A program made the translations under genes and the position numbers. DNA of 58,221 nt, from the NCBI GenBank assembly GCA_014860115.1, contig JACZKK010000067.1:1-58221 (forward strand), in the 5' to 3' direction. Below are positions 1,939-37,615 of the stretch, piece by piece. Every line of letters begins with the position of its first letter. Positions within the stretch are counted from its first letter, which is position 1. The notes below the pieces were generated by a model. The model saw only the letters and a list, made by a program, of their open reading frames with translations, made no database searches and was not told where the DNA came from. This DNA comes from Ignavibacteriaceae bacterium (GTDB lineage: Bacteria > Bacteroidota > Ignavibacteria > Ignavibacteriales > Ignavibacteriaceae).

Positions 1939-4932
1939 TTATTTTACTAATATCATTTTCTTAATTGATAAAAAGTTTTTCGATTCAAGTCGATACATAT
2001 AAACTCCGCTCGAAAGTTTCGCAGCATTGAATACAACTTCATATCTGCCGGCTTTCTGTTCACTGTTTACAAGTGAGGTTACTTCCTCGCCAAGCAGGTT
2101 GTAAACTGCTAACTTCACAAATCCGTCTTCTGATATTGAATATTTAATTGTAGTTGATGGATTAAATGGATTCGGATAGTTCTGCTCGAGTGCATAAACT
2201 AACGGGATCTCAACTTCAACATTCACTTCATCTGAATATGTGAATGTTCCATTATAATCTACCTGCTTAAGGCGATAAGTGTAATTACCAGTTTCAAGCT
2301 TTGAATCCACAAATGAATATGATTTTGGTTCGGTGGTTGTTCCGAATCCTGCAACATATCCTATCTGCTCAAATGAACTGCCAGCATTCATTCTTTCAAT
2401 TTCAAATCCCTGATTATTCGTTTCGGTTGCTGTTCTCCAGATAAGTTCTACATCAATACCCTTAGATCCTGCTGTAAATGATATCAGCTCTACCGGAACA
2501 ATGTAGCCAAGAGTCAGGTTATCCCAATAAATATTATCGTTGTTAAACGAGTTTCCGACAAATTTAATTTCTATTTGTGTGTTCTGTGAACCTGAAGCCG
2601 GAGTAGTGAATGATCCGGAAATTATAGTTGGTCCAACATTTCCCGTCGCATCAGCTTGACTATAAAGAGGTGTGGTTGTGGCTCCGCCATCATAAGTAAC
2701 AGAAACCGAAACTGTTCCGCTTGGATTTGCATACCAATCAAAAAAGTAGTTAAAAGAATAATTTATTTCTTTGTTTTCTGGTAAAGGTATAACGACCGAT
2801 CTCATTTTTGTTTCACCGTTAAATGATGGTGTCCAGCTCATTCTTAATTCTGGGGGAGTTCCACCTGCACTTGCAGAACTGTTTGCAGACCAGTTTGTGA
2901 GTCCCAATGGTCCCAATATAGTCCAGTTACTTAAATCAGGAAATGGTTCAACCCACTGAAATAAATTCGGATCCTGAATTGTTGTAAATTTCCAAATAGA
3001 GCCTGGCACAGAGCAGGTATCATTCTTCCCGACAATCTGCCAACCATAAGTGGTAGAGTATTCCAATGGCTCAAAAGCCGCCAGTGATAATGATGTAATT
3101 GGTGCGCCGCTATAAACTTGAGTAAGGCTTCCAGTTTCCCCAAACCAAACTTCAATTTGTGTTGCACCTGCACCATTTGTCCATGTTGCTGTGTTGCCGG
3201 TAATTGGAATATCTGTTGCACTATTTGCAGGGTTTGGATTTGCTGGTGGATCAATGGGACAAGGTGGACCCATTTCAATAACCGGCATTGATGGATCGCC
3301 CATCAAGTTATACATTTCAAGATATCGCAGCATTGTACTTCCCTGTGTAACTCCGCCACCATAGTGATTCACCAAATAAATTTTTCCCATATCAAACATC
3401 GGAGTAACTCTTGTAAGCCCATCTTCAAACATAGCTTTGATCAATCGTCTTTCAAGAATATCATCTTCATCCCAGTATGAGTTCACGGAAGATCCGTAAA
3501 ACGTGGAAGCACCGTTATCTGTCCGCAGCCAGGTTTCACCAAAACATTCTGTAAGATGATATGAGCCGGTTACACACGCAAAAGAATAAACATACGGATA
3601 CCATGTATTTGTTAAGTCTCTTACCTGCTGCTGGCTTAAAACAGGTCCATCTGCCCAGGAATATTCTGATCCGTGTCCGGAGTAAATGGCAAAAATCTGG
3701 TTATCGTTTAAAGCGTTGATCAACTGTTGTGTTGTTGCGCCATAAGTATACGTATATAGTTTAAGATTAGTATAGCTGGCTGGTTCAAAATACTGGTTGA
3801 TAATAAAATTGTGTGTCCCTTCCGTTATCTGCCAGTTATCAGTTGAGGACATATAAATATTTTTCTTTGTTAATGTGCCGATAAGATTTTCCATATAAAG
3901 AGATTTGTTTATTGCATTCTGTAGCTCTGCAGCATTAGCAATTGAAAATCTCCCTATAAAAGCATCAGCAAAATAATCTGTGCCTTCAAGCTGAACATAA
4001 TTAAGATCCGTTTTAGGCGAGCCTTCACCCGTGCCGGTCCATGCTGGAATTTGTGCAACATCCCCAACCAGCAAAATATATTCTGGTTTAGTTGCCGGAT
4101 TATTGTATCTGGCTTGAATAAAACTTTTTATAGTAGTTGTTGTCGTTCCGGTAACTGTGGTGTTGAACATGTCAACTTCAAAACCTTTGCTGATTTTATG
4201 AGTGACAAACTGCTGCATACCGGTTTCAAAAGTCGGGTCTGTTATAATAAGATATTTTGACGCAGCCCGAAAAGATGTTCCTTCATAATTTACAAATACA
4301 CTTCCCAGATACTGATTTAATGAGGGTGATTTATCAGCTACGGGTGTGATTTGGTGGTTAAGCAAAATATCAACCGAGCCATTACTAATTGCAACCAGCT
4401 TATCCTCAACCGGATTATATCTGAAAGGATAAAGTGTAATAGTTACACCTTTTATTCCGGCAATAATAAACGGCTCCGAAACATTAACGAATGGTTGTTC
4501 CGGATTGCCAGCCGAATTGTAGTACTCATTATTAATAGTAAATGGTCTTTCATCGATAGGTCTTGACTTTTCCCACGGCATCTGGAATGGATATATTTTG
4601 TTTTTAATTATCCTCTCTGAAGCGAAAATGTTTTTTATTTCATATCCTGGCTGACTTTCTGCATTCGAAATAAAAAGATTAAATGATATTGATGGAAGTT
4701 CAGGCAAACCAACTTCCGATGTGACGCCATAATCAGGAACAGTTATTCTAAGATATTCATTACCCGCTGCAGATACTTGTTCAATCTGATAATCAGGCAG
4801 GTTAAAATTAATGTGATAGCCCTGTGCTGTTTTTGTAAGACTAACCCCATCAGGGACGAATGCAAGAGAGAAACCTGACATCGAAATTAAAGCAACAAAT
4901 AAAAGTGATAAGAAACAGTATAAGTTTTTCAT
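1939..4932 (-). CDS. Gingipain-like peptidase family C25 with T9SS sorting domain
   Basis: A 997-residue secreted cysteine protease. Residues 1-25 are a signal peptide. After a propeptide-like region the C25 domain carries YSGHGSEYSW (His420) and SFACVTG (Cys453), again 33 residues apart as in gingipains. Next come an Ig/FN3-like domain (about 590-690), a jelly-roll or adhesin-like domain (about 695-830), the VELISFTA-type module frequent in T9SS cargo, and a type A C-terminal sorting domain (about 910-997) with NYPNPFNPSTTI and SSGVYMYRLES. Known of the family: export through the outer membrane by the type IX system and attachment or release at the cell surface. A Shine-Dalgarno GGGG lies six bases before the ATG. 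It is the first gene of the pair. Gene and function class are secure; the substrate is not known. Confidence 0.93.
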   Translation of the reverse strand: MKNLYCFLSLLFVALISMSGFSLAFVPDGVSLTKTAQGYHINFNLPDYQIEQVSAAGNEYLRITVPDYGVTSEVGLPELPSISFNLFISNAESQPGYEIKNIFASERIIKNKIYPFQMPWEKSRPIDERPFTINNEYYNSAGNPEQPFVNVSEPFIIAGIKGVTITLYPFRYNPVEDKLVAISNGSVDILLNHQITPVADKSPSLNQYLGSVFVNYEGTSFRAASKYLIITDPTFETGMQQFVTHKISKGFEVDMFNTTVTGTTTTTIKSFIQARYNNPATKPEYILLVGDVAQIPAWTGTGEGSPKTDLNYVQLEGTDYFADAFIGRFSIANAAELQNAINKSLYMENLIGTLTKKNIYMSSTDNWQITEGTHNFIINQYFEPASYTNLKLYTYTYGATTQQLINALNDNQIFAIYSGHGSEYSWADGPVLSQQQVRDLTNTWYPYVYSFACVTGSYHLTECFGETWLRTDNGASTFYGSSVNSYWDEDDILERRLIKAMFEDGLTRVTPMFDMGKIYLVNHYGGGVTQGSTMLRYLEMYNLMGDPSMPVIEMGPPCPIDPPANPNPANSATDIPITGNTATWTNGAGATQIEVWFGETGSLTQVYSGAPITSLSLAAFEPLEYSTTYGWQIVGKNDTCSVPGSIWKFTTIQDPNLFQWVEPFPDLSNWTILGPLGLTNWSANSSASAGGTPPELRMSWTPSFNGETKMRSVVIPLPENKEINYSFNYFFDWYANPSGTVSVSVTYDGGATTTPLYSQADATGNVGPTIISGSFTTPASGSQNTQIEIKFVGNSFNNDNIYWDNLTLGYIVPVELISFTAGSKGIDVELIWRTATETNNQGFEIERMNAGSSFEQIGYVAGFGTTTEPKSYSFVDSKLETGNYTYRLKQVDYNGTFTYSDEVNVEVEIPLVYALEQNYPNPFNPSTTIKYSISEDGFVKLAVYNLLGEEVTSLVNSEQKAGRYEVVFNAAKLSSGVYMYRLESKNFLSIKKMILVK

Positions 4933-22636: not shown

Positions 22637-24866
22637 TTATTTTATCTCCTTCAATCCTTTCGCATCCACAAAAAGAACATCCCCGATTTTATCATAGCCT
22701 TCAAAATATTCACTTCCCTCGCGTTTAAGAAATTCTTCCTGAAAACCGATAATCGTTAATCCTGCCTCAGCTGAGTACTCATTAACAAGTGATTTAAAAC
22801 TCATACCCTGTTCCATCTCAATCACCTGTATATTTTTTTCAAAAATTGGAAGTCGCCCGTATAAAACAAGCTCGTTTAATTTTGCAGTTTCTTTTTCTTT
22901 CTCTCCAACAGGACAGGTACTGAAGATTTTTATAAAAGCTTTTTCCCAATCCGGATGACCAAGAAGAATATAGCTTAGAAGTATCATCAGATTCGCGTTT
23001 TCGAAATCCCAGTTCCTCAGCCAGACATGGATACCATTTGAAAAATTTATACTTCGTGTTGATGCCCCAAGAATGCAGACATCAAAATCACCAGCCTGCA
23101 CAAGGGCGAGATTATCTACGATTTGTTCCAATCCTTCAGATTTACTTTTATCGTACTCGAATATGATCATATTATTTTCCATACCGGAAGGACTAGGCAG
23201 TTGAGCAATTTGAGCTATCGCCGAGGTAAATGATGGAGATATGATCGTATCAACATATATATTTCCTTTTATCATACTTGACCGAGAAACTAACTTCTCC
23301 AAAACTTTTTTTGCTTCTTCACTTTTTGCTTTTGAATAATATCCCTCAATCAAATGGATGTAAGTACCAAATCCAAATCTGTATGATAACCAGCTCAATA
23401 GATTTAATGCCCGGTCTCTTTCGAACGAATCCTTTGTAATGCATACAGCAGAAGGTCTCCAGTTCTTTTTAAAGTCGGATTTTTTTGATTTCTGTAAGTA
23501 AACAAAAACATTTCTACTTAACTGAAACATTGCACTCTGAAATATTGCTGCTATTCCTTGCCTGTCTTTATGATACCGGCTGATAAAAATATAAATAAGT
23601 ATGATTATGAGAATTGATAATAAAGCATACGGAGTACTTATCTGGAACATCAATAATAAGCTGACTAAAAATCCAACAAGTGAAATGTACCATCGGGATT
23701 TAAACGTTGGCCTGTAAGATGGATCAGCACCAAAGTGATATAAAAACGAAATCAAACATAGCGAGCCGTATGTAACCATAAAGAACATTGTAATTATTGT
23801 TGCAACTATATCAACATCTCCAAGTGCAACAAATACCAGTGCAATTATTCCTATTATTATCGATGCATTTCTAGGTTCATTTAGTGATCCAATACCTTTA
23901 GCAAGAAAAGCATTTGCAAAGGGAAGTGGAAAGCATCGGTCCGCACTCAATGCTTGTAATGTACGAGGTGCAACGAGAAATGATCCGATGGCAGAAGAGA
24001 TTGTAGATGCAGCAAGACCCAAAGGAACCACCAGCCATCCAAACAAAGCAATGTCGGACATAATAAGCTGTTCTGATAACAGATCCTCCGGACTTGCAGA
24101 AGTTGCCAGCTTATAAATAATAAAAAAGTAAACTACCAATCCAACAATTGTGGCTGAGATTGTTCCAAGTGGAATTGACTTGCCGGGATTTTTCAAATCA
24201 CCTGATAAACCAACACCCGCAGTCATACCAGTGAATGCCGGAAAGATTATAGCAAAAACCAGAAAAAAATTTTGCGGACGACTAAATGCATTATTAAATA
24301 CACCAACTGAATCAAGGTCACTAATTGGGCTGCCAAGAAAAAAAACATATTAATGAAATAAACAGTATTGCAACAACAGCATAAAGCGCTTTCATGCCGA
24401 TGTTGGCTCCCTTGAATATAATCACAAGTGAAAGAATTATTGTTGCCGGAATGCTTATTACCTGTCGCGGTAGATCCATTCCATAGGAAGTTTTCATCCA
24501 TTCAAAGAAAAATGAGAATGCCTCAGTGAAAGCAATAACATAAAAAGCAACACTTATTGCCTGCGAAAGGAAAAGCGCAATGCCTATTGTTGCACCAATG
24601 TTCAATCCAAAAGACCGGGAGATAATAAAGTATTCCCCGCCACCTTCAACTTTCTGATTAGTTGCGATTTCTGAGATTGCAAGTGCTGTTGGAATAGTAA
24701 CCAGATGTCCTATAATTACAATTAACAAAACACCGAAGAAGCCTAATGTGCCGACCGCAAAGCCAAAACGCAGGAACAGAATAGCACCAAGGATTGTGGA
24801 AATTGCGGTAAAGAAAACAGGTGCAGTTCCGAAACCGTTTGTGGATGAGAATTTAAACTTTTTCAT
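22637..24866 (-). pseudogene. SLC12/APC-type permease interrupted by a +1 frameshift
   Basis: Two frames together encode one protein of about 740 residues. The N-terminal part starts at ATG 24866 with the APC core FFTAISTILGAILFLRFG and five helices, and ends early at a stop at 24321. The downstream frame continues directly with FLGSPISDLDSVGVF and a further helix before the later ATG 24226, so translation from that ATG would lose sequence. The C-terminal half has the cytosolic domain of cation-chloride cotransporters (WLRNWDFENANLMILLSYIL). The shift lies in a run of eight T on the coding strand (plus 24338-24345); seven would restore the frame. It could be a true pseudogene, a phase-variable tract, slippage or an assembly error. 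Confidence 0.85.
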
Positions 24867-30068: not shown

Positions 30069-31574
30069 TTACAGAGATTCTATAACTTCCTCCCCTTCAC
30101 TCTCCGGCACAAAATATCTCACGGGCTGTATCTTCCCCTTTTTATCTTTCACTGCACGAACTTTCTTTTTCACAAGTATGCTGTGCTCAATAAAAAGATT
30201 ATCCGCTATTTTCGAACCGAAAATGTAAGAGGTTCCTTTTATCAAAACGTTCTTTCCAATCCGAAGCGGGAATTCATCACTACCGGTCATATTAACGCTG
30301 GATTCAATCCGTGAACCGTCGCCGATGACAATGTTTCCTTTGATAATATCTCCCCAGAGGATCTGAACATCGTTACCGATTTTAAGAGTTTGTCCCGCGT
30401 AACAGGAAAGATGGACATTCTGACTTAGGGAAACATTCTTCCCGAACAAAACTTTTCCGTCAACAAAAACATTTTTTCCAAGCTGAAGGTTGAAATTCAA
30501 ATCTACATCTTTCCCGATATGAACACCTTTCCCAACTACAACATCGAGAGCAGCATATTTTTTATCTGCCATTAAAATGTTTTCAACAACTTTTTCGTGG
30601 ATGAAGAAATCGTCAGGGTCTTCTATTTCAATTATATCTTTCAGTTTTTCGTAAACATTTTTGCGGGCAATTGCTTCCATTTCTTTCAGCACAGACTTAT
30701 TGTTGAAACCCATCACCACATAATCTTTTTCAGGACTTTCAGCAGCAACAGAATAATTCTTCTCATTGAATAATGAAATCAGATCGGTGAGATAAATTTC
30801 TTTTTGAACGTTTTCGCTTTTCAGCTTGCCGATCAGTTCTTTCAGCTTGCTGTAACGGAAAGCAAACACACCGGAGTTGTACTCGTTGTTGCTAATCAAT
30901 TCTTCTTTAGTGAAAGTATATTTACTTCCCTTGTAAACTGCTTCATAAGGTTTGTCATCGGGAAGAGCCTGAATATCTTTATGCTCAATAATTTCAATTA
31001 CTTTTCCTTTGTCGCCGAGCGATCTCGTTCCTCTTGAATCAAACTCTTTTACACGGAGAATTCTTCCGTAATTATTCTGCTTCGGATCGCCGTTGTAAAT
31101 TCCGGTAAGCACAATCATATCAGATTTCGAGTCGATGAAACTTTTCCTGAAACTTTTCAGTGTTTCTGCATCGATCAACCCCATATCGCCGGGAAAAATG
31201 TAAACTATTCCATCATCAGAAAATTTCATTATGCTTTTCAATGCAACCTGGACAGCGTGTCCGGTTCCGTTCTGTTCTTCCTGGTAAGCGTAAGCTGTGC
31301 TGGATTTCTTTCCGAGAACATTCAGAACATCGAGAGCTTTTATTCCGACAACTACAACCGAGTTAATTCCTTTCACAGCTCTTGTGCAGGCATTATGCAC
31401 TCTTTCAACAGTCGGAATTCCCCAGATTGTATGAAGCATCTTTGAACGCTGGGATTTTATCCTTTTACCATGTCCCGCTGCAAGAATTATTGCCAGCTCT
31501 TTGCACTTTGGATTAAAAGATGAGGATAATTTCTTTATAGTTTTTACTATTTCTTTTTTGTCGTTGTTTTGCAT
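30069..31574 (-). CDS. GlmU-like nucleotidyltransferase with hexapeptide-repeat domain
   Basis: About 500 residues. The N-terminal half is an NTP-transferase domain (ILAAGHGKRIKSQRSKMLH, then YIFPGDMGLI and EYNSGVFAF). The C-terminal half is a left-handed beta-helix with [LIV]-G-x4 repeats (VVGKGVHIGKDVDL, LGKNVFVDGKVLFGKNV). This is the layout of GlmU (UDP-GlcNAc pyrophosphorylase / GlcN-1-P acetyltransferase), but the helix is short and lacks an obvious acetyltransferase active site, so another sugar nucleotide is possible. I use ATG 31574; TTG 31598 would add eight residues. It lies 70 bp after the O-antigen-ligase-like gene. Confidence 0.8.
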   Translation of the reverse strand: MQNNDKKEIVKTIKKLSSSFNPKCKELAIILAAGHGKRIKSQRSKMLHTIWGIPTVERVHNACTRAVKGINSVVVVGIKALDVLNVLGKKSSTAYAYQEEQNGTGHAVQVALKSIMKFSDDGIVYIFPGDMGLIDAETLKSFRKSFIDSKSDMIVLTGIYNGDPKQNNYGRILRVKEFDSRGTRSLGDKGKVIEIIEHKDIQALPDDKPYEAVYKGSKYTFTKEELISNNEYNSGVFAFRYSKLKELIGKLKSENVQKEIYLTDLISLFNEKNYSVAAESPEKDYVVMGFNNKSVLKEMEAIARKNVYEKLKDIIEIEDPDDFFIHEKVVENILMADKKYAALDVVVGKGVHIGKDVDLNFNLQLGKNVFVDGKVLFGKNVSLSQNVHLSCYAGQTLKIGNDVQILWGDIIKGNIVIGDGSRIESSVNMTGSDEFPLRIGKNVLIKGTSYIFGSKIADNLFIEHSILVKKKVRAVKDKKGKIQPVRYFVPESEGEEVIESL

Positions 31575-31644
31575 TTGCCTGCGCTTTTTAATTTTCAAAA
31601 TGATTTATGTTTCCCGGATTCAAAAATAATAAAGCCATTTTACT

Positions 31645-33708
31645 TTATTTATTTTCCACTTCTTCTTTGTGCCGGATGTAAAGTGCTATGTTTAATCCAA
31701 CAGTAAAATATATAAGTGTTGCGATTTCGTGATCCCAGAAATTCACTTCAGATAATCCGGAAATCAGGATACTGACAAAAGCAGCAAGCGCACCCAGTGA
31801 ATACGATGCAATGAATGGTGTTCCCTTGCTTGATTTGTATATTTTATAAATTTTGATAATTATCATTATAAATAGATAGCTAAGCGCCAAAAATCCAAAC
31901 AATCCAAGTGTTGCAAGGAAATGGAAATAATTATTGTGAAGATGTCCGTGAATTTCTTTATCATAAGGTCGCTTGTAATGAACATAATATTTTTCAATGC
32001 CGATATCACCAACACCGAACAAAGGATAATCTTTAAAAATCTCCCAGCCAGCACGCCAGAGAGCTAACCTTGTAAAGTTTTGCGGAAGATACAGATCGAA
32101 AAAACTAAGAAACCTGCCGCGGCTAACATAAGTACAGTACAGCTTGCCATCAGAGAACATAAAATTGGTCGGTTCAGGAAAAACTTTATCATCAGCGAGA
32201 AGTTCAAATTTTCTACTATGGTTAACTTTGAATTTATAAACTGCACCATCGCTTGTAAGAACTGCCAGCACTTCATCATCACCAAACATTCTATGAACCT
32301 GCTTAAATTCAGTCAACTGATCTTTAAGAACAATTTTATTATTCTCAAGCGCAAACACTTTTAATCCGTCTTGATTACTTACGAACAAATTTCCATCAAA
32401 AAAATAAGCCCTGTTTATACCGTTAACTTCATTTTTTGTTATCAAACCGCCTGGTAGAAAGCCATTCCTTGAAAACACTGCAATGCCTGATTTATCACTT
32501 ACGAAATAAAAGTTTGATGAATCAATAAAAAGCCATCTGTAGCCTTTAAGTTCAGGAAAACGAATAGGTTTTGATATTGAGGTAATGGATTCGTAGATAG
32601 TTAATCCGCTGTCACCATCAAGTGTGTAAAGAGTTTCATCTATTAGTTCAAAATCCTTTGTTTCCCCCGGTGGTAATATTTCATTTACTTTTCTAAGTTC
32701 CCTGCTATCTTTCTTAAAAACAAGAAACCGTGTGTCAACAAGATAGGCTAAAAATAAATCATCTGTAGCTTTAGAAAACAAAATTGCTGGTGCAGGTGTT
32801 TCAATCTGCTTTACTAAAGCAGAATCCTTGTACAATAAAATTCCGTTCTCATAATCGCTAACGATAAACATACTATCAAATTGTGAAATGGTCGTGGCTC
32901 TTCCCTCGGTGTTGAATGAATAAAGTTTATTTGCTTTTGACACTTCAAAATCGTAAACACTAACAAGGCTAATATTTTTATCGGTTAAAAAAAGAATTAT
33001 CCCAAGAATAAAAACTGGTATCAAAATAACCCATTTTCTTTTAATGATGAGGATAAGAATTATTCCAATTGCAACACCCATCCATCCTGTTCGTTTAAAT
33101 GTTGCAATTAAAGTGAACAGCGAAATTGCAAACCCGGCAAACAATAAAATCTTCGTCTTCCAACCAGTTTTTTCATTTATGATAAACGCGAATAGGAATA
33201 AAACTGTAAAGCTGATGACTTCACTTGCAGTAATGGGATGTTGAAATACGGACGGTCCGGACTGGATAATATTATACTGGTTACTAAAATAATGCTGGAC
33301 TGCTATAATTAAATAAATTATACCGGTTATTAGCGAGCCAACAATAAAAAGTATGAAAAAGTTTTTACCGCGTCTCAAATTTGTGGTTACAGCTATAGTA
33401 GTATAAACTACAGGAATTAATAAAGCTCTCTTCGTAAAGAAATGAAAAGCTTGCGCCTGGTAATCGGAAAGTATAAGTGATATTATTTCGGCAAGCATAT
33501 AAAGAGCAAATGCAAGCTCAAGTCCGGTTCTATTGAACTGGTTTTTTCTTGTAAGAAATGCTTTTATAAGTATGAAAAGAAGTGCCCCGAAATATCCGAT
33601 CTGGTTTACAAATATGGAGTTGCTGAGACTTAATATGAATATGACGAATAAAGAAAGTATTATCCAGTCGAGAATTTTATAATCTTTAGTTCCCTGAATT
33701 TCGTTCAA
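31645..33708 (-). CDS. O-antigen ligase / polymerase-like membrane protein with inserted beta-rich domain
   Basis: 687 residues. About eight membrane helices (17-245) carry the loop motif FKRTGWMG (Arg206). The Wzy/WaaL C-terminal motif FTRLALWRAGWEIFKDYPLFGVG (start and end at about 545-567) and HGHLHNNYFHFL (His588-His596) follow, then two or three helices. In the family these parts are close together. Here about 275 residues (260-535) are inserted in the periplasmic loop, with short repeated strands such as FIVSDYENGILLY, LYTLDGDSGLTIY and YFVSDKSGIAVFSR that look like beta-propeller blades. Start TTG 33708 has AGGT seven bases upstream. It probably transfers or polymerises surface glycans. 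Confidence 0.85.
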   Translation of the reverse strand: MNEIQGTKDYKILDWIILSLFVIFILSLSNSIFVNQIGYFGALLFILIKAFLTRKNQFNRTGLELAFALYMLAEIISLILSDYQAQAFHFFTKRALLIPVVYTTIAVTTNLRRGKNFFILFIVGSLITGIIYLIIAVQHYFSNQYNIIQSGPSVFQHPITASEVISFTVLFLFAFIINEKTGWKTKILLFAGFAISLFTLIATFKRTGWMGVAIGIILILIIKRKWVILIPVFILGIILFLTDKNISLVSVYDFEVSKANKLYSFNTEGRATTISQFDSMFIVSDYENGILLYKDSALVKQIETPAPAILFSKATDDLFLAYLVDTRFLVFKKDSRELRKVNEILPPGETKDFELIDETLYTLDGDSGLTIYESITSISKPIRFPELKGYRWLFIDSSNFYFVSDKSGIAVFSRNGFLPGGLITKNEVNGINRAYFFDGNLFVSNQDGLKVFALENNKIVLKDQLTEFKQVHRMFGDDEVLAVLTSDGAVYKFKVNHSRKFELLADDKVFPEPTNFMFSDGKLYCTYVSRGRFLSFFDLYLPQNFTRLALWRAGWEIFKDYPLFGVGDIGIEKYYVHYKRPYDKEIHGHLHNNYFHFLATLGLFGFLALSYLFIMIIIKIYKIYKSSKGTPFIASYSLGALAAFVSILISGLSEVNFWDHEIATLIYFTVGLNIALYIRHKEEVENK

Positions 33709-33902
33709 TAGTTATACCTGAATTGCAATTGAGATGAAAGCTTTTACTTAATAATGATGCCGGATATTTTGCTCATTTACAGTTTAAATTTAATGCTGGT
33801 ATCATCCAATTCATAATATATTAACTATGCTATATGAATAAGATTAAATAATTCAATTTTAGTGACTATCTTTTCACACAAGATTTTTAATAGTTGTATC
33901 AA
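33709..33902. promoter_or_regulatory. Divergent promoter region, ligase-like gene and ABC exporter
   Basis: About 190 bp, very AT-rich, between two genes that diverge. It must hold both promoters, but I could not pick boxes with confidence, and no operator-like symmetry stands out. Confidence 0.35.
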
Positions 33903-35732
33903 ATGAAAGTTTTCTGGCGATTCTTTAAATATCTAAAACCTTACATTAAACCGCTGGCTGCGGCAAATTTCTTTATGCTGTTATTTGTCATTTTCAGCCT
34001 GGCGTCGATCGGTCTTGTTATGCCGTTTATAGACCTTTTATTCAATCAGTCACCAGACCAAATAACCACCGAAGTAAGTTTCAGCATTCTTAATCTAAAA
34101 GAGTGGCTTTCATATCAACTTAATGAGTTTGTTCAGTCGTACTCTAAACTGCAGCTTGTTACTTATTTATGTATCCTGATAATCGTAGTGTTCCTGTTTA
34201 AAAATCTTTTTTCATATCTGCAGACGTGGTTTATGTCTTTTGTTGAACAGGGAATAATCAGAGATATCCGCCTTCAGCTTTATACTCACTTCCACAAGCT
34301 ATCACTAAGCTATTTCACCGAAGAGAAAAAGGGAATTTTAATATCGAGGATAATTAATGATGTGCAGATAATTAAAGATTCTATGATTGCAGTAATTAAC
34401 AGTTTATTCAGGGATCCGCCGCTCATTATAATTTTTTCAGCTGTGCTTTTTATTTTTAACTGGAAGCTTACATTACTCGTATTTGCATTAATCCCCGTTA
34501 CAGGATTTGTCCTTGCTAAAATTGGCAACTCACTAAAAAAGCGAAGCATTCGTTCGCAGGAAAGAATTGCTGATATCACTTCGATACTTGATGAGACTTT
34601 CGGAGCAATGAGAATTGTAAAAGCCTTTGGGATGGAAGAATATGAAATCAAAAGATTTCGTGAAGAAGAAAAAAAATATTTTCGCCTGCTAACCAGCTTG
34701 ATCAGAAGAAGAGCTCTTGCTTCTCCAATAACTGAATTCTTCGGGGTTATAACAATAACAATCATACTTTATTTTATCGGAAGCCAGATTGTTCTTGGAG
34801 AAAGCGATATGACGCCCGGTGCCTTCTTTGTCTTTCTGGGAATTTTCTTTCAGATGATGCCTTCAATAAAACTAGTCGGGCAGGTTTTTAACAGTATTCA
34901 GGAAGGAATTGCTGCATCAGAAAGAGTTTTTTCGATTCTTGATACGACTCCCAAAATAGTAGACGCTCCAGATGCAATTGATTTAAAATCCTTTAACAAG
35001 GGAATTCAATTTCATAATGTTAGTTTCAAATATGAAAAGAGCGACTTAATTCTTAATAAAATTAATCTTGAAATAAACAAAGGTGAAGTACTTGCAATAG
35101 TTGGTCCAAGCGGAGCGGGAAAATCAAGTCTTGTAGATCTTATTCCTCGGTTTTATGATGTAATAGATGGCTCAATACTTATTGATGGTATTGATATTCG
35201 GAATATCACAATCAAATCACTCCGTTCATTTATTGGTGTAGTTACACAGGAAACTATATTATTCAACGACACAGTGAAGAGTAATATTGCTTACGGATTG
35301 CAGGATTTATCTCGGGATAAGATCATAGCAGCTGCTAAAGCTGCGAATGCACATAATTTTATTGAGAACTTGAAAGATGGATATGAAACAGTTATCGGTG
35401 ATCGCGGTACAAAACTTTCCGGAGGTGAAAGGCAACGACTCTCTATTGCGCGTGCATTGTTGAAAAATCCTCCTATCTTAATTTTGGATGAAGCAACATC
35501 ATCGCTTGATACAGAATCTGAAGTGCTTGTACAGCAGGCAATTGAAAGATTAATGACTGGAAGAACCTCAATCGTTATTGCACATAGATTATCGACTGTT
35601 CAAAGCGCAAATAAAATAATTGTGCTCAGCGATGGTGAAATTGTCGAAGAAGGCACTCACGAGGTTCTTTTAGGTAAGCTCGGATTGTATCATAAACTTT
35701 ATAATATGCAGTTTAAATTCGACGAGAAATGA
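33903..35732 (+). CDS. ABC exporter, MsbA-like (membrane and ATPase domains fused)
   Basis: About 609 residues. Six membrane helices (about 15-310), with the coupling loop TSILDETFGAMRIVKAFGME, and a nucleotide-binding domain with Walker A GPSGAGKSS, the Q loop GVVTQETILFND, signature LSGGERQRLSIARAL, Walker B ILILDEATSSLD and switch His AHRLST. Lipid A flippase MsbA is the closest description, and the adjacent glycosyltransferase and ligase genes fit a surface glycolipid role; a drug exporter cannot be excluded. ATG 33903 is chosen over TTG 33894. Its end overlaps the GT2 gene by 4 bp. Confidence 0.88.
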   Translation: MKVFWRFFKYLKPYIKPLAAANFFMLLFVIFSLASIGLVMPFIDLLFNQSPDQITTEVSFSILNLKEWLSYQLNEFVQSYSKLQLVTYLCILIIVVFLFKNLFSYLQTWFMSFVEQGIIRDIRLQLYTHFHKLSLSYFTEEKKGILISRIINDVQIIKDSMIAVINSLFRDPPLIIIFSAVLFIFNWKLTLLVFALIPVTGFVLAKIGNSLKKRSIRSQERIADITSILDETFGAMRIVKAFGMEEYEIKRFREEEKKYFRLLTSLIRRRALASPITEFFGVITITIILYFIGSQIVLGESDMTPGAFFVFLGIFFQMMPSIKLVGQVFNSIQEGIAASERVFSILDTTPKIVDAPDAIDLKSFNKGIQFHNVSFKYEKSDLILNKINLEINKGEVLAIVGPSGAGKSSLVDLIPRFYDVIDGSILIDGIDIRNITIKSLRSFIGVVTQETILFNDTVKSNIAYGLQDLSRDKIIAAAKAANAHNFIENLKDGYETVIGDRGTKLSGGERQRLSIARALLKNPPILILDEATSSLDTESEVLVQQAIERLMTGRTSIVIAHRLSTVQSANKIIVLSDGEIVEEGTHEVLLGKLGLYHKLYNMQFKFDEK

Positions 35733-36583
35733 GAGTAAGCGGTTTCACAATAATACGAAACGGCATTAAGTATTTTTATCCTTTCCGTGAAGCAATTCTA
35801 AGTATACTTCCCTTATGTGATGAATTAATTGTAAACGTTGGTGACTCTGAAGATAAAACTTACGAGGCAGTAAAATCTATTGAGAGTGATAAAATCAGAA
35901 TCATCCGAAGAACCTGGGATATGACTTTGCGTGAAGGTGGAAAATTATTATCTGTTGAAACAAATGCAGCACTAAAAGAATGCACTGGCAATTGGGGTGT
36001 TTACATTCAGGCAGATGAAGTACTGCATGAAAAATATCTTGACACTGTTATGAATGCGATGCGCATTAATCTGAATCGTGACTCAGTTGAAGCATTACGA
36101 TTTAAATACAGACACTTTTACGGAAGCTATGATTATTACCAGGATAACTACAGGAATTGGTACATAAAAGAAATTAGAGTTATTAAACTGAATAGACAAA
36201 TTATTTCCTGGGGTGATGCAATGAGTTTCAGACATGAAAATACTTCACCTGTAAAACCAATCGACATAGATGCTGAAATTTATCACTATGGCTGGGTAAA
36301 ACCACCGGATACAATGATGCTGAAAAGGATTGATTTCCATAAACTTTATCATGCTGACGAAGAAATGCTTAGTATTTCTGAATCATCATTTAAGTTTGAT
36401 GATTTTGGAAATCTTAAGAAGTTTGAAGGTACTCATCCCGAAGTAATTAAAGCCAGAATTGAAGTAGCAAACTGGAAATTCGATGCTAAGCTTGATCAAC
36501 AAAATCCGGATTGGATCAGAAAAATATTAATCTTTCTTTTCCCACTTACGAAAAGAATTAAGAAAATATTAAATTTAAAATAA
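35729..36583 (+). CDS. Glycosyltransferase family 2-like protein
   Basis: 284 residues, GT-A-like. An N-terminal nucleotide-sugar binding part (ISGFTIIRNG-like start, then LPLCDELIVNVGDSEDKT) is followed by the acidic QADEVLHEKY site, equivalent to the DxD of the family. It is soluble, with a basic C-terminal helix (FLFPLTKRIKKIL) that may touch the membrane. Start overlaps the ABC exporter stop by 4 bp, so the two are translationally coupled and probably act on the same surface lipid. The sugar is unknown. Confidence 0.82.
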   Translation: MRVSGFTIIRNGIKYFYPFREAILSILPLCDELIVNVGDSEDKTYEAVKSIESDKIRIIRRTWDMTLREGGKLLSVETNAALKECTGNWGVYIQADEVLHEKYLDTVMNAMRINLNRDSVEALRFKYRHFYGSYDYYQDNYRNWYIKEIRVIKLNRQIISWGDAMSFRHENTSPVKPIDIDAEIYHYGWVKPPDTMMLKRIDFHKLYHADEEMLSISESSFKFDDFGNLKKFEGTHPEVIKARIEVANWKFDAKLDQQNPDWIRKILIFLFPLTKRIKKILNLK

Positions 36584-37615
36584 TTATTCCCTGACCGGAA
36601 TTGACGGCAGCATTACTAACCCGCATCCCTCTCTTGGCTTGATGACATCCACTACTTTTTTCTGATTCAGATCATAAATATTGATCCTGGAATTATTATC
36701 AAATCCGTCATCAAAAATCAAAAGGTTACTCAAGGCAAAAAAGTTTTTCAGACCTGCCCCGCCAAATGCATTGATAAGTGAATCTGCTTCAAGCGAATAA
36801 ATAAATAATTCAGAAGTTTCAGGATTTTTTGTTTTGATCGTTTCGTTATCAAGATTTAAAGTTGATAGAAAAAGATATTCTTCATTGTCGCTCCATTTAA
36901 GCTTATTTAAACGATGCTTCATAACCGCGATAGACTCGAGACTGTCACTGCCTGCTATTTTTAGAAACACCGAATCACTTTTGAATGAAACTCCATACTT
37001 ACCTGAAGTAGAGATAGTAGAATTTGTGGGAGGTATCAACTGTGGAAAACCGCTTTTCTCGATATCAAATGTTTTGATTTCACTGTCAACCAGTTTTCCG
37101 TAATGATCATAAACCTTTGTGTATTGATTAACATAGGATGCGATTGTTTTATCAACGGAAGTGTAAATCATTTCCAGATTTTCATCATCATTCCAGCGAG
37201 CTGTAAATTGAAGCCCGCTGCCAAGATTATCAATCTGTTTTGTTTCCGACAAATCGTGAGAAATAATGAACAACTTAAGCCTGTTGAAAAAAGGGAAATT
37301 TGCTTTCATTCCCATCTTCTCAGAAGTTAGAAAATATGATGGATGATTTTCGGACTTGTACACCAGCATAACAACATTTTCTCTCGGATGCCACCAAACA
37401 GTAGAATATTTTTTCTTAGCAAGATCGTATTTGTAAACACCAACCTTACCAAACCATTCGGTTAGGAAAAGAAAAGTATTTTTAGTGTCAGGAATTAATG
37501 TGTCGCTGCTTGAATCTTTCCCGGATTGCTTTTCGTTTTGGCCGGCATCTTTACATGCTGCGATGAGCAGGAAAAGTAGAATTAAGGATAATATTTTATA
37601 CGATAAAGATGTCAT
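36584..37615 (-). CDS. Lipoprotein with beta-propeller-like domain
   Basis: 343 residues. A lipoprotein signal (LILLFLLIAAC, acylated Cys21) and a polar linker precede a beta-rich domain with recurring hydrophobic strands (FLFLTEWFGKVGVYKYDL, LFIYSLEADSLINAF, INIYDLNQKKVVDVI), like a WD40 or TolB-type propeller. Family not recognised; probably bound to the envelope. Its stop codon directly abuts the stop of the GT2 gene (0 bp between convergent ends). Role unknown. Confidence 0.75.
   Translation of the reverse strand: MTSLSYKILSLILLFLLIAACKDAGQNEKQSGKDSSSDTLIPDTKNTFLFLTEWFGKVGVYKYDLAKKKYSTVWWHPRENVVMLVYKSENHPSYFLTSEKMGMKANFPFFNRLKLFIISHDLSETKQIDNLGSGLQFTARWNDDENLEMIYTSVDKTIASYVNQYTKVYDHYGKLVDSEIKTFDIEKSGFPQLIPPTNSTISTSGKYGVSFKSDSVFLKIAGSDSLESIAVMKHRLNKLKWSDNEEYLFLSTLNLDNETIKTKNPETSELFIYSLEADSLINAFGGAGLKNFFALSNLLIFDDGFDNNSRINIYDLNQKKVVDVIKPREGCGLVMLPSIPVRE

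Follow-up and report, generated by a model that had tools for sequence, protein, structure and literature searches.

Ligases of the WaaL type (Pfam PF04932, Wzy_C; CAZy GT121), such as those of E. coli and C. metallidurans (7tpg/7tpj), keep their C-terminus in the cytoplasm, and the Wzy_C family also takes in polymerases and enzymes that O-glycosylate proteins. To our knowledge, quite how a WaaL-type enzyme recognises a very variable polymer together with a lipid acceptor is poorly understood. Residues R215, R288 and H338 are named as important for WaaL, and as shared with PglL, in the accessible portion of one report (PMC3643930). A ligase with an extra globular domain is described in WadA, a bimodular protein (GT121 with GT25) whose added domain is, as far as the available part of that account goes, an appended glycosyltransferase and not a propeller in the catalytic loop (PMC10920833). 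The precedent for a propeller acting on LPS is PorZ of Porphyromonas gingivalis, with two seven-fold propellers that, according to the accessible text, bind A-LPS polysaccharide (PMC8545088). PorZ is a separate surface protein of type IX secretion with no ligase part, and the propeller lipoproteins built of LVIVD repeats likewise stand alone. In the literature searched, mostly papers open without subscription, no ligase with an inserted propeller was recognised.

A ligase core with an inserted predicted propeller

The window, by which is meant the whole 58,221-nucleotide stretch of Ignavibacteriaceae DNA analysed, holds a gene in which both elements appear in one protein, divided as follows.

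31645..33708, minus strand: whole gene for a WaaL/Wzy_C-type ligase with an inserted beta-propeller, 687 amino acids from a TTG start (Pfam, AlphaFold2)
32968..33708, minus strand: N-terminal membrane core, residues 1-247, with about nine membrane helices and R206 (AlphaFold2, alignment with WaaL)
32116..32967, minus strand: inserted seven-bladed beta-propeller, residues 248-531 (fold predicted; limits set by comparison with a relative lacking it)
31645..32115, minus strand: C-terminal core, residues 532-687, made up of three membrane helices preceded by the catalytic segment with R547 and H591 (model, alignments)

The preliminary description had placed this reading frame correctly, on the minus strand at 31645-33708, and its assignment to a ligase-type enzyme agrees with PF04932 being the sole Pfam family found in the whole protein, in two stretches and above its cut-off (59.1 against 31.7 bits). 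The middle of the protein is without a Pfam match when the whole is scanned, and the insert scanned by itself gives a weak WD40-like match (E 0.028). BLASTP against an insertion-free Caldithrix relative (L128, 394 amino acids), whose residues 236 and 238 end and begin the segments that correspond to window residues 247 and 532, delimits an insert of 284 residues, 248-531. The repeated beta strands noticed earlier are indeed inserted, although over residues 248-531 and not 260-535, and the position after the last membrane helix that had been given to them does not hold, since in the AlphaFold2 model about nine long helices precede the insert and three more come after it (594-626, 631-654 and 660-686). 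That the protein is a ligase-family enzyme with a propeller is as good as certain; an assembly artefact or chimera was rejected, the same architecture being present in dozens of genomes.

Residues R206, R547 and H591 align with R215, R288 and H338 of E. coli WaaL and are kept in 50, 53 and 53, respectively, of 53 propeller forms. Comparison by hhalign with the single E. coli WaaL sequence also pairs R547 and H591, at low probabilities (1.7 and 4.1%), and so the sequence-based assignment of a ligase core is made jointly on Pfam, on these residues and on a profile match in the PDB. That match, to the C. metallidurans ligase 7tpg (E 1.2e-6), is the only one found at E 0.01 with the profile of alignment A1, whose 24 rows are the window protein and 23 orthologues out of 29 further loci retrieved, and all 24 match Wzy_C at E 1. 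The pattern H[NSQ]x9Gxx[GTY], which we take to be a signature of O-antigen ligases and Wzy_C proteins, is present in 60 of 62 relatives, the two misses (L115, L121) being frames cut at a contig end, and in 18 of 20 insertion-free rows, with L138 and L143 lacking it. These 62 derive from 68 loci, of which 63 were translated (L122, L125, L126, L127 and L129 being omitted as partial) and L089 was then dropped for a stop inside the frame. The propeller ligase frame of L089, on the MAG chromosome contig CP053447.1, may be a pseudogene or carry a sequencing error. A further alignment, A3, has 54 rows, namely 52 proteins with start, stop and more than 640 amino acids, the window protein and L128. No NCBIfam model reaches its cut-off on the window ligase: the RfaL equivalog NF012031 scores 23.2 against 277 bits, and IctB (TIGR00947), the NCBIfam model that matches most relatives (52 of 54), 31.7 against 366.4 bits.

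The likeness to WaaL lies in the register of R215, R288 and H338 and in a histidine segment ahead of the last three helices; the difference is the 284-residue propeller just before the arginine-to-histidine segment, together with a very low overall identity. Because three helices follow the catalytic segment, and on the premise of a cytoplasmic C-terminus as in WaaL, the insert and H591 would lie in a single periplasmic loop.

Structure prediction, suggested earlier as a check, folds the insert as a propeller, against the possibility raised at the time of a structure with none. The AlphaFold2 model (54 sequences; mean pLDDT 91, pTM 0.85) has 28 strands in residues 246-529, the first starting at 246, and these are read here as A-B-C-D repeats grouped into a predicted seven-bladed ring. 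By strand order blade 7 is closed by both ends of the insert, strands A and B coming from its end and C and D from its beginning. Foldseek returned 976 PDB matches at E <= 0.001, and among the 50 best listed are many propellers (BamB, beta-TrCP, WD40 proteins and designed propellers), with VIA-align giving Z up to 22.1 at an rmsd of 2.9 over 263 residues; the matches listed from both are propellers with no ligase chain and have no bearing on the membrane fold. PorZ shares the blade number, and its NCBIfam model (NF052228) matches 2 of 53 inserts (best E 7.5e-7); the window insert matches no NCBIfam family, PorZ included, at E 0.05. The likeness to LVIVD lipoproteins consists in 13 of 53 inserts matching the repeat family PF08309 at E 0.05, a threshold under which the window insert itself stays without a match. 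In a genome of the same genus the insert profile also picks up a lipoprotein-like protein that by eye resembles the LVIVD type.

Conservation over the 53 propeller forms (weighted, effective number 43) is uneven between the two faces, the loops of the top face (BC and DA) being better conserved than those of the bottom (13 against 14 loops, permutation p 0.011). The six best-conserved loops, B1C1, B3C3, D7A1, B2C2, D2A3 and D1A2, form a continuous arc over blades 7-1-2-3, an arc that was chosen after the data had been seen, and its part on blades 1-3 is the following.

32599..32910, minus strand: conserved arc, residues 267-370, loops of blades 1-3 (T267, G269, D285, G289, P307, D325, R327, G348, D364, D366, G368, T370)

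Four other top-face loops of blades 3-6 (D3A4, B4C4, D5A6 and D4A5) are found among the five loops with the lowest conservation, and the signal is therefore one of blades 1-3 and not of the whole face; mean conservation is 0.38-0.40 for blades 1-3 and 0.26-0.29 for blades 4-6. Part of the signal may be structural, coming from residues of the kind found in propeller turns: D285-G289, D366-G368 and P307 resemble what we take to be the structural turns of the LVIVD repeat. Blade 7 makes both connections to the membrane core from its BC position, and the conserved loops share that face; from this reading of strand order we infer that in the modelled protein the conserved arc faces the membrane domain. 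Core positions specific to the propeller clade were not significantly enriched on the periplasmic side (p 0.056, in a comparison that left out the four syntenic short ligases), and a clade-specific adaptation of that side of the core is not clearly supported.

Distribution and origin of the insertion

The preliminary description had proposed a search for further carriers, and the insert does recur: in a whole-protein search a match runs through it in 54 of 97 genomes of the window's order, the window's own included and a few of the matches being cut by contig ends, with a weak match confined to the C-terminal part in 4 further genomes. Split copies aside, there is one strong match to the propeller ligase per genome. 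The size is nearly fixed, 52 of the 53 relatives with both start and stop having 674-702 amino acids and the remaining one being the 394-residue Caldithrix protein. With a profile of the insert (E 1e-6) 25 of 395 genomes of the phylum match, all in the window's order, from which 15 more genomes give no match; within the class 42 of 294 genomes match, 36 of them from the order and the remaining 6 from a single further family, f59. Contigs found with two short peptide patterns, a scan that distant forms may escape, carry names that include Ignavibacteriaceae, Ignavibacteriales, Ignavibacteria, Melioribacteraceae, Melioribacter, Ignavibacterium, Stygiobacter electus and one Caldithrix sp., and by these names the window's order would be Ignavibacteriales.

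The C-terminal core is recognised more widely. Its profile (A5, 33 of the 54 rows of A3) matches 44 of 395 phylum genomes at E 1e-15, of which 25, with open frames of 683-709 amino acids, are in the order, while the other 19, whose stop-to-stop frames have 389-662, lie beyond it. Of these 19 outside candidates, 4 do not belong to the class (open frames of 428-486 amino acids); the 15 that do, from its other families (L177-L191), were read, and all have insertion-free reading frames of 385-448 amino acids. The earlier view that the insertion is unusual among ligases is borne out by these 15. They resemble the window ligase in matching the core profile at E values down to about 2e-56, and in them and in the Caldithrix protein the segment after the insertion point is recognisable; the difference is that neither they nor the Caldithrix protein have a propeller. 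An insertion common to the whole ligase family was rejected on the same relatives.

In a tree of 52 rows, from which the insert columns had been removed, the 32 propeller rows used (of 53) fall on one side of a branch with support 96/100, a side that includes L113, L114 and L118, taken as f59, and the propeller trait requires one change (94% of 200 bootstrap trees). The tree is unrooted and by itself does not decide between gain and loss; gain is favoured by the presence of forms without the insertion in Caldithrix and in the class's other families. A single gain, ahead of the divergence of f59 from the order, is the simplest reading.

The operon slot and its neighbours

The genes around the ligase in the window are these.

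30069..31598, minus strand: nucleotidyltransferase-like protein directly downstream of the ligase, kept in some nearer relatives
33894..35732, plus strand: MsbA-like ABC transporter, divergent from the ligase (best NCBIfam model MsbA)
35729..36583, plus strand: family 2 glycosyltransferase, overlapping the end of the ABC gene
36584..37615, minus strand: lipoprotein-like protein modelled as a beta-propeller (predicted structure), kept upstream of the ABC and ligase genes in many relatives

Upstream sequence of 2.5 kb or more is present at 53 loci with a ligase reading frame. In 41 of them the gene immediately before the ligase, and co-directional with it, encodes an MsbA-like ABC protein, and in 29 of those 41 the two mechanically called frames overlap or abut. 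The exceptions are a larger gap (L066, L106), an inverted ABC gene (L120) and a broken ligase frame (L089); no ABC match was seen upstream of the ligase in 8 of the 53, nor at the Caldithrix locus. Further upstream many loci have lipoprotein-like, XerC-like and HD-domain genes. Four ABC proteins were scanned, and in all MsbA is the best NCBIfam model, at 525.6 to 561.2 bits against a cut-off of 602; the window's ABC protein, at 525.6 bits, misses this cut-off and scores 249.2 with PglK. The ABC and glycosyltransferase pair of the window (33894-36583, plus strand) is inverted relative to the common operon. Its ABC protein is about 46-51% identical to the co-directional ABC proteins of relatives, and its nearest co-located forms are that of L120 (67%), inverted too, and the pairs of ABC and family 2 glycosyltransferase in L178 and L179 (53% and 56-57%); the transporter seems to have been replaced.

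The corresponding place was examined in ten genomes of the order that lack the propeller form. Four of them (L137, L138, L141, L143) have an insertion-free Wzy_C protein of 386-394 amino acids after the ABC gene, in three (L140, L142, L145) the retained ABC gene adjoins one for a family 2 glycosyltransferase, in one (L139) the contig stops short of the slot, and in L144 and L146 no ABC match was seen there. The four short slot ligases sit far from the propeller clade on the tree, which points to a probable refilling of the slot and not to a mere loss of the propeller. In the other families of the class, 13 of the 15 stretches read also have an ABC gene of this kind close to the insertion-free ligase, and in six of them (L177, L182, L187-L190) the two genes are immediate neighbours. 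The lipoprotein-like protein has no Pfam family; its model (pLDDT 88, from an alignment of 25 of 34 matches and the window's own sequence) gives NirF- and TolB-like matches with low TM-scores. Its gene is present in the four loci with the short slot ligases as well, and an obligate pairing of propeller and lipoprotein is not supported on that account.

The genome has one gene of the Kdo-transferase type and five Wzy_C proteins in all. Elsewhere in the window a gingipain-type C25 peptidase with a propeptide and a type IX secretion sorting tail is encoded at 1939-4932 (minus strand), and at 22637-24866 (minus strand) two adjacent frames of 529 and 181 amino acids look like one permease in pieces, by eye suggesting a frameshift.

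Possible roles of the propeller

The preliminary description suggested that the insertion could bind a polymer or regulate ligation, and either may hold. The overall best explanation, for which the chances are put at about even, is that of a WaaL-type ligase whose propeller roofs the active site and holds part of the substrate. An activity as LPS O-antigen ligase, and not another of the Wzy_C activities, is probable, and handling of the glycan or acceptor by the propeller at the active site is a more tentative proposal, falling a little short of even. The MsbA-like transporter would deliver lipid A-core, and the ligase would take polysaccharide linked to Und-PP from the membrane and join it to lipid A-core or a similar surface acceptor. 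The propeller would sit in the periplasmic loop that bears the catalytic arginine and histidine, joined to it on the face of the conserved loops, where strand B of blade 7 gives way to strand C, and for that reason the conserved loops would be turned to the membrane domain and could dock there as a roof over the active site or catalytic loop. So placed it might hold an invariant ligand, either lipid A-core or the end of the lipid-linked polymer, and leave the variable blades 4-6 free or touching the variable polymer. A further reading, possible but rather unlikely, is a built-in glycan reader, a propeller face over the active site that would recognise either lipid A-core or the terminus of the O-polysaccharide and so check it before ligation.

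The strongest of the rivals has the propeller bind a protein of the LPS pathway, be it the MsbA-like transporter, the propeller lipoprotein or the Lpt bridge, with substrate handed over and no glycan bound by the propeller itself. Propellers often serve as protein-binding platforms, the transporter gene is adjacent in 41 of 53 loci and the lipoprotein upstream in many loci itself models as a propeller; against this, both the lipoprotein (in the four propeller-free loci) and an ABC gene of that type (in 13 of the 15 stretches from other families) occur near insertion-free ligases, and so neither needs the propeller, which leaves docking unlikely. That the propeller is a passenger, tolerated and only stiffening the loop, is favoured by the poor conservation of blades 4-6, yet the near-constant length (52 inserted proteins of 674-702 amino acids) and the strong conservation of one face of blades 1-3 speak against it, and it is the least probable reading, with very little weight.

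Two rivals concern the reaction rather than the propeller. Glycan might be moved to proteins, with the propeller selecting the protein acceptor, and here simple sequence comparison cannot separate WaaL from PglL according to the accessible part of PMC3643930. Of 54 rows, 34 match the model TIGR03097 (a putative O-glycosylation ligase) at E 0.001, with the window protein at 24.6 against 188.1 bits; PglL_A (PF15864), however, is unmatched in the window protein (to E 10) and in the 24 rows of A1 (to E 1), and the window transporter is nearer MsbA than PglK, though under the MsbA cut-off, which together make protein O-glycosylation improbable. A polysaccharide polymerase (Wzy) would have the identical Pfam domain, and the four other Wzy_C proteins of the genome indicate that the family is used several times; the gene nonetheless often occupies a conserved slot with MsbA-like, XerC-like and HD-domain genes, outside a variable polysaccharide cluster, and has one strong match per genome, and on these indirect grounds polymerase activity is given a still smaller chance than transfer to proteins.

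With a propeller-bearing ligase that roofs its own active site as the preferred reading, what distinguishes this family is that in one lineage an entire propeller, near-constant in size and with one conserved face, separates the catalytic segment from the membrane core, and that other relatives lack it. Where sister genomes fill that operon slot with an insertion-free ligase, they offer a natural comparison for the role of the periplasmic loop. Were the glycan reader true, it would add a new level of control to O-antigen attachment, for which the insertion-free ligases of the same slot would serve as controls.
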